64,000 bases of DNA from Herbaspirillum chlorophenolicum. Its GTDB lineage: Bacteria; Pseudomonadota; Gammaproteobacteria; Burkholderiales; Burkholderiaceae_D. A model generated the notes under the pieces. It was not told the DNA's origin. It made no database searches and saw only the letters and a program-made list of their open reading frames with translations. Both the position numbers and the translations under genes were made by a program. Shown one piece after another: positions 4,683 through 33,282 of this stretch (its first letter is position 1; each line of letters opens with the position of its first letter). The stretch spans positions 124,001 through 188,000 of the forward strand of contig NZ_LFLT01000002.1 in NCBI RefSeq assembly GCF_001189955.1, in the 5' to 3' direction.

Positions 4683-5096
4683 ATGAACAACGTGAATTCA
4701 AACGAATTTCAATCCGTGCTGGACGCCGACCTGCAGCGCGCCGTGCTGGAATCCCAGGCGCGCTCGCAGGCCGAAAAAAACCTGCCGACGCTGACCAAGG
4801 CCGAACTGGCCGAACTTTTATTTGAACAGGTCGGTCTGAACAAGCGCGAAGCGAAAGACATGGTGGAAACCTTTTTCGATGAGATTCGCAACGCGCTTGA
4901 GCGCGGCGAGGCGGTCAAGCTGTCCGGCTTCGGTAACTTTCAGTTACGTGACAAGCCCCAGCGTCCAGGCCGCAATCCGAAGACCGGTGAAGAAATTCCC
5001 ATTACGGCAAGGCGCGTGGTCACGTTCCATGCCAGTCAGAAATTGAAGGAAATGGTGGAGCTCTCCAACGGCAACTCCGTTGAACTGTCCGTCTAA
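4683..5096 (+). CDS. ihfA: Integration host factor subunit alpha
   Basis: 137 residues. The C-terminal 100 residues are a clear HU/IHF fold with [30 protein letters not shown] and the DNA-intercalating [13 protein letters not shown] arm. IHF alpha pairs with IHF beta, bends DNA and shapes promoters, recombination sites and origins. About 36 extra N-terminal residues precede the usual start near LPTLTKAE, unlike the 99-residue E. coli protein. No internal ATG or better ribosome-binding site was found to shorten it, so the extension is kept, but the start is uncertain. It follows pheT in the classical order. Confidence 0.95.
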
Positions 5097-30259: not shown

Positions 30260-31678
30260 ATGAAAATTTATCCCGTCATCCTTTCCGGCGGTTCCGGCAC
30301 CCGTTTGTGGCCTTTGTCGCGCGCTGCGCTGCCCAAGCAACTGATCTCGGTAGTGGGGCAACGTACCATGCTGCAAGATACCGTGACCCGAGTGAACAAC
30401 TGGCCGCAGGTCATGCCGCCCTTGTTTGTGTGCGGCAACGATCACCGCTTCATGGTGGCCGAGCAGATGCGCGAGATCGGCGTCAAGCCGCTGGGAATCA
30501 TGCTCGAACCGGTGGGGAAGAACACGGCTCCGGCTGTGGCCGCCGCCGCCCATCTGTTGGCCAAGCGCGACCCGGATGCGGTCATGCTGGTGCTGCCGGC
30601 CGATCACGTGATCAATGATGTCGAGGCCTTCAGGGATGCCGTGTCGCGCGCATCGGAAGCAGTCGCCGGCGGCGCCCTGGCGACTTTCGGCATCTTGCCT
30701 TCCACGCCTGAGACCGGTTACGGCTATATTCGCCGCGGCAAGCAGGTCGCCGGCGTCGGCGATGCCTTTGTGGTGGACAAGTTCGTCGAGAAGCCGGATC
30801 TCGCCACCGCCAAGGCATTCCTTGAAGAGGGGAGTTATTCCTGGAACAGCGGCATGTTCCTGTTCAAGGCCACCGATTATCTGGAAGAGTTGAACACGCA
30901 TCGGCCGGACATCGCCGCGCCGGTTGAGCAGGCAGTCGCCAAGGGTTATGAAGACCTCGATTTCTGCCGGCTGGACCAGGCCAGCTTCGAAGCCACGCCT
31001 TCCGAATCGATCGATTACGCGGTCATGGAAAAGACCAGGAAGGCCGTGGTCGTGCTGGCCGATATTGGCTGGAGCGATGTCGGTTCATGGAGCGCCTTGT
31101 GGGCCGTGCAGGAAAGCGATAGCAATGGCAACGTGTCGCGTGGCGATGTGCTGCTGCAGGATGTCTCCAATACCCTGGTGCGCGCAGAGAGCCGCATGGT
31201 GGCGGCCTTGGGCGTCGAAGACCTGATCATTGTCGAAACCGACGACGCCGTGCTGGTTGCACATAAGGACAAGGTGCAGGACGTCAAGAAGATCGTCGAC
31301 TCCCTGAAGTCATCGGGGCGCAGCGAGCACCTCCATCACAAGCGCGTATTCCGCCCGTGGGGCAGCTATGAGAGCGTCGCCGAGGGCGAGCGTTTCCAGG
31401 TCAAGCGCATTATCGTCAAGCCGGGTGAAAAGCTCTCGCTGCAGATGCACCACCATCGCGCCGAACACTGGGTCGTGGTCAGCGGCACCGCATTGGTGAC
31501 GCGCGGGGAAGAGGTCAAGTTGTTGAGCGAAAACGAATCGATCTACCTGCCCATCGGCGTGACGCACCGCCTGGAAAACCCGGGCAAGCTGCCGCTGCAC
31601 CTGATTGAGGTGCAGTCGGGAAGTTATCTCGGGGAAGACGATATCGTGCGGTTCGAGGATATCTACAAGCGCGTCTAA
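30260..31678 (+). CDS. manC: Mannose-1-phosphate guanylyltransferase / mannose-6-phosphate isomerase
   Basis: 472 residues, the usual length of the bifunctional AlgA/ManC type. The N-terminal pyrophosphorylase has ILSGGSGTRLWPLSR and the FVEKPD motif; the C-terminal cupin isomerase domain (about 350-472) has RPWGSYESV, the metal-binding QMHHHRAEHW and YLPIGVTHRLEN. It makes mannose-6-phosphate from fructose-6-phosphate and GDP-mannose from mannose-1-phosphate; no phosphomannomutase lies in the window. It is the last EPS gene here. A weak 8-bp hairpin without T-run begins at its stop codon (31677-31701). Confidence 0.95.
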   Translation: MKIYPVILSGGSGTRLWPLSRAALPKQLISVVGQRTMLQDTVTRVNNWPQVMPPLFVCGNDHRFMVAEQMREIGVKPLGIMLEPVGKNTAPAVAAAAHLLAKRDPDAVMLVLPADHVINDVEAFRDAVSRASEAVAGGALATFGILPSTPETGYGYIRRGKQVAGVGDAFVVDKFVEKPDLATAKAFLEEGSYSWNSGMFLFKATDYLEELNTHRPDIAAPVEQAVAKGYEDLDFCRLDQASFEATPSESIDYAVMEKTRKAVVVLADIGWSDVGSWSALWAVQESDSNGNVSRGDVLLQDVSNTLVRAESRMVAALGVEDLIIVETDDAVLVAHKDKVQDVKKIVDSLKSSGRSEHLHHKRVFRPWGSYESVAEGERFQVKRIIVKPGEKLSLQMHHHRAEHWVVVSGTALVTRGEEVKLLSENESIYLPIGVTHRLENPGKLPLHLIEVQSGSYLGEDDIVRFEDIYKRV

Positions 31679-32115
31679 CAATCGTTATTGGGCCGATTGT
31701 TGCAGTGAATGCATGATGCCGGATTCAGCAAGCCGATGTGTGAGTTGGCAGCGTAGCCAGGCAGGCATGCATTCACTGCGTACAGAATCAGAAAAACTAT
31801 TTATATCAATGGCTTAAGCCGCTCTTCCCGGAGTTTTCCACAGGCTTGCCCCCATTTTCTGGGGATAAGTGGGAGAGGGCGGTGACAGGCGGATATGAAA
31901 CGCTGCCATGCGTTTGCCGGAATGCCTTTCCTACGGCGGAAGATTAAAAAACAGGCGCGTTGCACGCCTTTGAACCGTTTTGGGAAAACGGTTTTCAATC
32001 AATGGCTTGGGTGAGTTTTCCTCAGCTTTTCCACAGGCATGTCCCCGAATTGTGTGAACAACTTTGAGACGGTGGCAAAGAGCTCCCGCCTGTGGAAAAG
32101 ATCTGGCGCTTGCGT
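31679..32115. repeat. Intergenic region with a duplicated DnaA-box-like unit
   Basis: A unit occurs twice, 193 bases apart: ATCAATGGCTT (31805 and 31998), 18 bases, TTTTCCACAGGC (31834 and 32027), 17 bases, then an inverted 9-mer (TTATCCCCA at 31868-31860, TTGTTCACA at 32061-32053). A further reverse TTTTCCACA lies at 32099-32091. All five 9-mers differ from the DnaA box TTATNCACA by one base. A hairpin AACCGTTTT/AAAACGGTT (31973-31993) sits just before the second copy. No ORF here is credible. The spacing identity argues for a functional or recently duplicated element. Confidence 0.55.
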
Positions 32116-33282
32116 TTATTGCTTCGCGCCGGCGGCGGTTTGCCATAGCCGCGCAATTTGTTCCGCGCTGCTGCGCAGCAAATGAGGCGCGTCGGCGATC
32201 GCATCTTGCAGGGTGCCGGGGCCGAATACGATGGAGAAGCAGCCCGAGAAGCTGGCCTGGAGTTCGCCCAGCGATTTGCGGTCGATGCCGCCGGAGAGCA
32301 GCGTGGTCGGTATGCCGGCGCGGCGTGCCCTTTGACTGGCGATGAAGGGGGCCTTGCCGTGCAAGGTCTGTGCATCGCTGCGTCCTTCACCGGTGATGAG
32401 CCAGTCGGCGCCGGCCAGCGCCTCGTCCAGATCGATGTGGTCGGCTACCGTTTCGGCGCCGGAGCGGAACTCCGCACCCAGCATCAGCAATGCGTAACCC
32501 AGGCCGCCAGCCGCGCCGGCGCCGGGCTTGCCGCAGGCGGAGCGTCCCAGCTCCTTTTCCAGCACTGCCGCGAAATGGGCCAGTGAGTGATCCAGCACGC
32601 CGACTTGTTCGGGCGTTACGCCTTTTTGCGGGCCGAACACTGCGGTGGCGCCTTCGTCGCCGCATAAGGGATTGTTGACGTCGGACATGGCGACAATCTT
32701 CGCGTCCCTGATGCGCGCATCGATACCGGAGGCATCGATACGGGTTACCTTGTGCAATTGCGAGGGCAGTGGCGGCACGGCTTCTCCGGCCGCATCGTAG
32801 AGCTTGATGCCAAGCGCGGACAGCAGGCCGGCACCGCCGTCATTGGTGCTGCTGCCGCCCAGGCCGACCAGGAAATGGCGTGCGCCGCGATCCAGCAGCT
32901 TGAGCATGGCGTCGCCCACGCCCAGGGTGCTGCGTTGTTCCACCGGCACGGCGATGCCTGCGGCATCGGTCAGGCCGACAATGGCGGCCGATTCGATCAC
33001 CGCGCTGCCATCCTTGAGGATGCCGACCGGACAGTCGGCGAGTTGTCCCGCCGCGTTGCGGCAGGCGATGGCAAGGCGTTCGCCGCCGGCATGCATCAGC
33101 GCGTCCAGCGTTCCTTCGCCGCCGTCGGCGATTGGCCGCAGTCGTATCTGCGCACCGGGAATGGCGGCTTGTATGCCCGCGCCGATGGCAGCTGCGACTT
33201 CTTCAGCGGTCAGCGAGCCTTTGAAGGAGTCGGGGGCGATGACGACGATGGGCGGGCGTGGCGATGTGCTGGTGTTGGTCAT
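32116..33282 (-). CDS. Glycerate kinase
   Basis: 388 residues, the size of GlxK/GarK-type class I glycerate kinases. Clear family motifs: VVIAPDSFKGSLTAEEVA at the start, PIADGGEGTLDAL, GLGGSSTNDGGAG, SDVNNPLCG and GAAGGLGYALL. It phosphorylates glycerate (2-phosphoglycerate product in the GarK type) using ATP in glyoxylate or sugar-acid catabolism. No pathway partner is nearby, so its metabolic setting is unknown. It is transcribed against the EPS genes. Confidence 0.93.
   Translation of the reverse strand: MTNTSTSPRPPIVVIAPDSFKGSLTAEEVAAAIGAGIQAAIPGAQIRLRPIADGGEGTLDALMHAGGERLAIACRNAAGQLADCPVGILKDGSAVIESAAIVGLTDAAGIAVPVEQRSTLGVGDAMLKLLDRGARHFLVGLGGSSTNDGGAGLLSALGIKLYDAAGEAVPPLPSQLHKVTRIDASGIDARIRDAKIVAMSDVNNPLCGDEGATAVFGPQKGVTPEQVGVLDHSLAHFAAVLEKELGRSACGKPGAGAAGGLGYALLMLGAEFRSGAETVADHIDLDEALAGADWLITGEGRSDAQTLHGKAPFIASQRARRAGIPTTLLSGGIDRKSLGELQASFSGCFSIVFGPGTLQDAIADAPHLLRSSAEQIARLWQTAAGAKQ

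Follow-up and report, generated by a model that had tools for sequence, protein, structure and literature searches.

The intergenic gap between manC and the glycerate kinase gene glxK contains two copies of a compact 65-bp cassette, in which a perfect IHF site is followed after 17 bp by three DnaA boxes or box-like 9-mers at offsets 0, +12 and +26, the last of them inverted. As judged from the DNA, this element is probably a tandem pair of DARS2-like DnaA-reactivation modules. It comprises the same parts in the same order as in E. coli, which makes DnaA reactivation the best reading, while a datA-like or titration role stays in play because box II is weak, the IHF site is nearer and no Fis consensus is present. 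A datA- or DARS-like role had been proposed in a first, sequence-only reading of the window (the whole 64-kb stretch of DNA that was analysed), and it appears to be supported by the DARS core geometry, the IHF site, the conservation of the units and sampled data that place oriC elsewhere.

Unit 1 spans positions 31804–31868 and unit 2 positions 31997–32061 (Table 1). The sequence-only reading had described the pair as an 11-mer, ATCAATGGCTT, at 31805 and 31998, 193 bases apart, followed after 18 bases by TTTTCCACAGGC and, 17 bases past this first 9-mer, by an inverted box. All of these positions were found again, with TTTTCCACAGGC at 31834 and 32027 and the inverted boxes at 31860 (TTATCCCCA) and 32053 (TTGTTCACA). 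That description missed the IHF site and the third box-like 9-mer, which is conserved between the outer boxes. The 11-mer is present and sits inside the perfect IHF consensus WATCAANNNNTTR, but the element shared by the units is this consensus rather than the 11-mer, whose inner bases vary more among 141 units. A fifth site, TTTTCCACA, is likewise present on the minus strand, but it lies outside the units and its position is not conserved. Within each unit the boxes are located on one side of their own IHF site, and because the units stand in tandem, IHF site 2 is also flanked by unit 1 on its other side. The box II position fits the DnaA box consensus at 5 of 8 bases in unit 1 and at 4 of 8 in unit 2. 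The 437-bp gap has a GC content of 0.51, with an AT peak of 72.5% in 40 bp and no strongly AT-rich stretch, and contains no match to the Fis consensus GNNYANNNNNTRNNC. The gene for one partner protein, ihfA, is also located in the window, 27 kb from the element.

Table 1. Features of the paired cassettes, their convergent neighbours and a partner gene; positions are those of the window.
Feature	Position	Strand	Basis or remark
A-tract 5' of IHF site 1	31792..31796	+	sequence; column conservation in 141 units
IHF site 1, TATCAATGGCTTA, perfect WATCAANNNNTTR	31804..31816	+	consensus from passages of PMC4585315 and PMC10380432
DnaA box III, unit 1, TTTTCCACA	31834..31842	+	
DnaA box II position (degenerate), unit 1, TTGCCCCCA	31846..31854	+	same in 8 of 8 aligned gaps
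DnaA box I, unit 1, TTATCCCCA	31860..31868	-	opposed to boxes II and III
A-tract 5' of IHF site 2	31985..31988	+	sequence
IHF site 2, AATCAATGGCTTG, perfect WATCAANNNNTTR	31997..32009	+	
DnaA box III, unit 2, TTTTCCACA	32027..32035	+	
DnaA box II position (degenerate), unit 2, ATGTCCCCG	32039..32047	+	
DnaA box I, unit 2, TTGTTCACA	32053..32061	-	
Single extra DnaA box, TTTTCCACA	32091..32099	-	not conserved in place
manC (GMP_PMI), left convergent neighbour	30260..31678	+	
Glycerate kinase (Gly_kinase), right convergent neighbour	32116..33282	-	
ihfA, IHF alpha subunit (HMM-matched part)	4791..5057	+	partner protein implied by the element

Four perfect matches to WATCAANNNNTTR, the published IHF consensus (given in passages of PMC4585315 and PMC10380432), are found on the two strands of the 64-kb window, and two of them lie exactly at the units. 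For a wider view, 141 distinct units were collected from the fetched loci with a gapless matrix (score at least 40, related sequences not down-weighted); the matrix was built from such units and the genomes are related, so counts over the 141 units are not independent, and being gapless the matrix cannot show other IHF gaps. The consensus is perfect in 87 of these 141 units and has at most one mismatch in 132. In 31 aligned units, and then in the 141 distinct ones, ATCAATGGCTT is conserved as ATCAA-NNNN-TT(G/A); across the larger set TCAA and TT(G/A) are almost fixed, and the bases between them are more variable. Adenine occupies columns -13, -12 and -11 in fractions of 0.93, 0.91 and 0.68 of the 141 units, and upstream A-tracts are typical of strong IHF sites. 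DnaA, Hda, IhfA and IhfB are all encoded in the genome from which the window was taken (hereafter, the source genome).

The arrangement of the boxes was examined with a core pattern taken from the E. coli boxes, TTNTNCACA-N3-TTNTNCACA-N5-TGTGNANAA, with up to three mismatches. The window contains two matches, each accompanied by a perfect IHF site at a fixed place and each at the three-mismatch limit; none was found in 300 Markov-1 windows (19.2 Mb). Matches occur in 59 of 61 genomes: the 34 genomes of the same genus contain 244, with 4 to 10 in each, and the 27 genomes outside it contain 72. Reversing the pattern left one match in all 61 genomes. When the gaps between the boxes were widened to 4 and 6 bp, three matches were obtained, or one with this variant reversed. 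Since the altered gaps almost never match, it is the exact gaps that matter and not box density alone. The number of mismatches exceeds three in 63 of the 141 units, and some of the three-mismatch matches from other families resemble AT-rich sequence matched by chance. One candidate core with three mismatches (C161:2069) was rejected as a likely chance match, as it overlaps an open frame. At the box II position, offset 12 is the best interior match over the 141 units, but by a narrow margin (4.55 versus 3.85 of 8), so that the average gives partial support to box II being an ordinary DnaA box.

A search of the source genome, a 5.3-Mb draft, with a short version of the compound pattern that the sequence-only reading had pointed to, ATCAATGGCTT-N16..20-TTTTCCACA, returned three matches, the two window units and C1:73042. 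A longer pattern with up to three mismatches returned five, two in the window and three at C1:72869-73376, and the backwards controls of both patterns returned none. The second array is located between convergent DUF2026 and DUF3299 genes; both gaps of the source genome thus lie between convergent genes. A sequence model (R1) was then built on 31 units, five of them from the source genome. Units came from 10 of the 48 stretches in the collection scan, many of which are from unrelated bacteria; the six units of L055, near-copies of those of L012, were left out, and the weak matches in L025, L037 and L051 were unused. R1 matches all 34 genomes of the genus (E <= 0.1; G024 only at 0.003) and 13 of the 27 genomes outside it, most near E 0.01-0.1. 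A scan of 399 genomes of the order, made with stricter filters, gave matches at E <= 1e-4 in 39 genomes from 30 of 158 genera, the same genus included, and the other 360 genomes had none at this level.

When one best-match locus is taken per genome, the DUF2026/DUF3299 locus accounts for 29 of 30 and holds one to seven units; the exception is G017 (L090). This count covers the best locus of each genome; R1 finds further full-length matches elsewhere in G003, G004, G014, G017, G022, G023 and G031, some of them weaker, and on several contigs of a Paraburkholderia. A decayed mobile repeat scattered over many unrelated gaps, the outcome that would have told against the sequence-only reading, is not the main picture, as 29 of the 30 best loci are orthologous. 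G014 has, besides its DUF3299 array, a separate array of seven diverged units (L180 6597-7446, G014:C19) between what are presumably a response-regulator-type phosphatase-like gene and a leuA-like gene. In another family of the order, L213 4923-8726 (G324) contains nine IHF-17-core units over about 4 kb.

Conservation around glxK was analysed in eight gaps, the window and seven others, with identities measured against the window. The units have identities of 0.86 and 0.89, as against 0.30-0.50 for the sequence that separates and surrounds them. In the IHF site of unit 1 the first five bases reach 0.91 and the NNNN bases 0.68. The outer boxes reach 0.97-1.0, and box II reaches 1.0 in unit 1 and 0.87 in unit 2. 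The identity of the fifth site is 0.27 over the seven other gaps, and CCTGTGGAA-like strings occur near its region in some gaps at other distances. Conservation is confined to the predicted binding sites, a pattern of conserved units in diverged surroundings that agrees with the earlier suggestion of selection on protein binding. The position of the unit pair next to glxK is retained in all eight gaps. Only in the window and L050 does manC directly adjoin the pair; it is about 1.3 kb off in L030 and about 9 kb off in L172, and the remaining four fetched stretches showed no manC. The left side of the pair in L030 is instead faced by a different coding-like stretch.

In a scan of E. coli MG1655, boxes I(+), II(-) and III(-) of DARS1 as well as of DARS2 were located at 0/+14/+26, in agreement with section 20 of PMC5742627, which describes equal spacing in DARS1 and DARS2 and an opposed box I. 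When the window units are read on the minus strand, box I, the degenerate box II and box III also fall at 0/+14/+26. With DARS2, located between rppH and mutH, the units share the three-box core, an IHF site on the box III side and an intergenic position. They differ in that the nearer of the two DARS2 IHF sites is 58 bp from box III and here the distance is 17 bp, in that the gap contains no Fis consensus, in the degeneracy of box II and in the presence of two or more whole modules in tandem. The two IHF distances differ by 41 bp, close to four turns of the helix, perhaps by coincidence; PMC5742627 describes the spacing of DARS2 as optimised. DARS1 (bioD-uvrB) has the same three-box core, but no IHF consensus was found in the bioD-uvrB gap, whereas each window unit has one. 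Like the units, datA combines an IHF site with DnaA boxes outside oriC; unlike them, it has another box order and orientation and a location close to oriC. Its IHF site lies between the boxes, an arrangement that differs from the single unit and may be matched by the second IHF site of the pair. The DnaA-box clusters of B. subtilis, of which several lie outside oriC, resemble the units in this respect and differ in being without IHF, as far as a passage of PMC13220808 describes them. Section 10 of PMC10380432 and passages of PMC8682772 explain the E. coli device: boxes I and II are arranged head-to-head so that contact between the AAA+ domains of ADP-DnaA leads to ADP loss, box III strengthens this loss, and IHF together with Fis activates DARS2. 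According to the former source, box II is essential together with box I.

The distance from the origin, another point raised by the sequence-only reading, was determined in five complete genomes, in which the loci lie 0.33-0.45 of the genome from oriC or dnaA. For the complete congener G020, 25 stretches of 20 kb were sampled and analysed for GC skew, a strand-biased octamer and box density. A candidate oriC consists of eight boxes within 600 bp (three perfect) with an AT-richer dip; dnaA begins about 6 kb downstream of it, and at a distance of about 12 kb there is an mnmG-like gene, which we take to be mnmG from its N-terminus. This candidate (L169 12865-13929) is not directly upstream of dnaA. 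The distance from this cluster, as a fraction of the genome, is 0.34 for the array and 0.41 for the glxK pair. In the four other complete genomes the fraction was measured from dnaA and is 0.33, 0.36, 0.33 and 0.45 for the array and, in one of them, 0.41 for the glxK pair. The GC skew of G020 is noisy. The strand-biased octamer GGGNAGGG flips between 2.48 and 2.75 Mb; it is left-arm-like at 5.23 Mb, 5.49 Mb and 1-20 kb, right-arm-like at 60-80 kb and undecided at 4.68 and 4.95 Mb. This pattern is in broad agreement with the cluster, although the switch could be a few tens of kb beyond it, and the arrays are far from the origin whichever switch position holds. The gene rpmH was discarded as an origin marker, because several hundred kb separate it from dnaA in the five complete genomes in which it was looked for.

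Cores were also observed at two other loci of the source genome. A pair between hemE and priA (C2:49058 and 49423; L209 6059 and 6424) is separated by 365 bp and has one and two mismatches; both cores have a perfect box II, and 83-84 bp off on the box III side each has a perfect IHF consensus, which points the other way. Core pairs of similar spacing are present in several congeners. A single core between cstA and htpX (C105:108439; L178 6440) has one mismatch and a near-consensus box II, and no IHF consensus with at most one mismatch was found nearby, which makes it DARS1-like; similar cores occur in G015, G020 and G029. In a sister genus, a scan of G034 that required an IHF match (up to two mismatches) at the 17-bp gap identified eight units (L179 3433-6551) with one or two core mismatches and a near-consensus box II.

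The main alternative, which we regard as distinctly less probable than reactivation although far from negligible, is a datA-like or titrating sink, in which IHF-assisted assemblies would hydrolyse ATP-DnaA (DDAH) or simply keep DnaA from reaching oriC. In that case an ATP-DnaA-specific assembly that lowers initiation would be favoured by the weak box II. Like datA, each unit pairs one IHF site with DnaA boxes, the second IHF site of the tandem pair lies between two box groups as in datA, box II is degenerate in the manner of low-affinity boxes, and arrays of up to seven units would bind many DnaA molecules; the use of DnaA-box clusters outside oriC in B. subtilis, as a passage of PMC13220808 reports it, is in line with this role. 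However, the datA IHF site is placed between same-direction boxes about 55 and 85 bp off and not beside an opposed triplet, and datA is near oriC, whereas these loci are distant from oriC or dnaA. For titration alone, gaps fixed at 3 and 5 bp would be unnecessary, and loci with a single unit exist.

The remaining explanations are all very unlikely in our estimation. DnaA and IHF have roles in transcription as well, and with the pair next to glxK in every one of the eight gaps, a DnaA/IHF-controlled promoter or terminator of manC and glxK can be imagined; in L030 the stretch facing the pair on the left would allow a promoter. Against so improbable a reading, both gaps in the source genome lie between gene ends, and such convergent neighbours argue against promoters; manC directly adjoins the pair in only two of eight gaps, and a like unit occurs at an unrelated locus. 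The box clusters, the tandem copies and some full-length matches at further places could also suggest an ectopic or relic replication origin or a decaying mobile repeat. We give this little credence: the cluster and octamer in G020 place oriC far from both loci, the gap is not strongly AT-rich, 29 of 30 best-match loci are orthologous and conservation does not extend beyond the predicted binding sites. On the first two of these grounds, oriC identity was rejected for the unit arrays. There is similarly a slight chance that the DnaA-plus-IHF module has a function outside the E. coli list, for example in terminus-side chromosome organisation or as a replication-passage timer. In its favour, over a quarter of the genome separates both loci from oriC or dnaA in the five complete genomes measured, two of which served for the glxK pair, and the unit number varies from one to seven; the core geometry, however, equals that of DARS, so a new function is not required.

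The reading of the element as DARS2-like is thus favoured by the E. coli-like core offsets, the perfect IHF sites, the absence of Markov matches, genus-wide matches set against few in the controls and altered gaps, units conserved in place, IHF on the box III side, the presence of genes for DnaA, Hda, IhfA and IhfB, and the eight sister-genus units with one or two core mismatches and the same IHF gap (the one scanned for). It is weakened by the degenerate box II, by both units being at the three-mismatch limit and 63 of 141 above it, by an IHF distance of 17 and not 58 bp, by the lack of a Fis consensus and by chance-like matches in other families. In the proposed mechanism, ADP-DnaA would bind boxes I and III and, cooperatively, box II. 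Head-to-head AAA+ contact across boxes I and II would loosen ADP, and bending by IHF at the adjoining site would assemble or gate the complex. The freed apo-DnaA would take up ATP, raising ATP-DnaA before the next initiation at oriC, and the several units at two loci together with the two further core loci may act additively.

In the literature, the DARS2 core is reported as conserved in gammaproteobacteria related to E. coli (a passage of PMC4245941), and DARS conservation is placed mainly in gammaproteobacteria near E. coli (passages of PMC4245941 and PMC8682772). One review sentence extends DARS2 to E. coli-proximal beta- or gammaproteobacteria (PMC5742627), a passage of PMC10380432 mentions similar sequences in many proteobacteria, and V. 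cholerae is named for DARS in part of PMC6090056. Searches of the open-licence PMC literature for DARS2 with Herbaspirillum or betaproteobacteria and for DnaA boxes with Herbaspirillum returned no paper, and DARS1 with Burkholderia returned passages on the DARS of E. coli and V. cholerae only. The passages retrieved from a replication paper on Burkholderia cenocepacia mention DnaA-box clusters and do not contain the word DARS.

It is possible, though we put this forward tentatively, that Burkholderiales have distinct modular reactivation loci: Fis-independent cassettes of IHF site, 17-bp spacer and DARS core, arranged in tandem (one to seven per Herbaspirillum array, eight in the sister genus) at conserved sites far from the origin in Herbaspirillum, with separate DARS1-like and nearer-origin cores, and with the number of cassettes setting ATP-DnaA regeneration. 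If the form is indeed genus-wide, multi-copy and free of a Fis consensus, reactivation of DnaA catalysed by DNA would seem to be an older and more flexible layer of control. The compact 65-bp cassette would be a small test object for IHF gating, and its species-specific copy number makes the dose-response directly testable. In summary, the arrangement of these loci suggests that these bacteria time the copying of their chromosome by multi-copy versions of the E. coli device.
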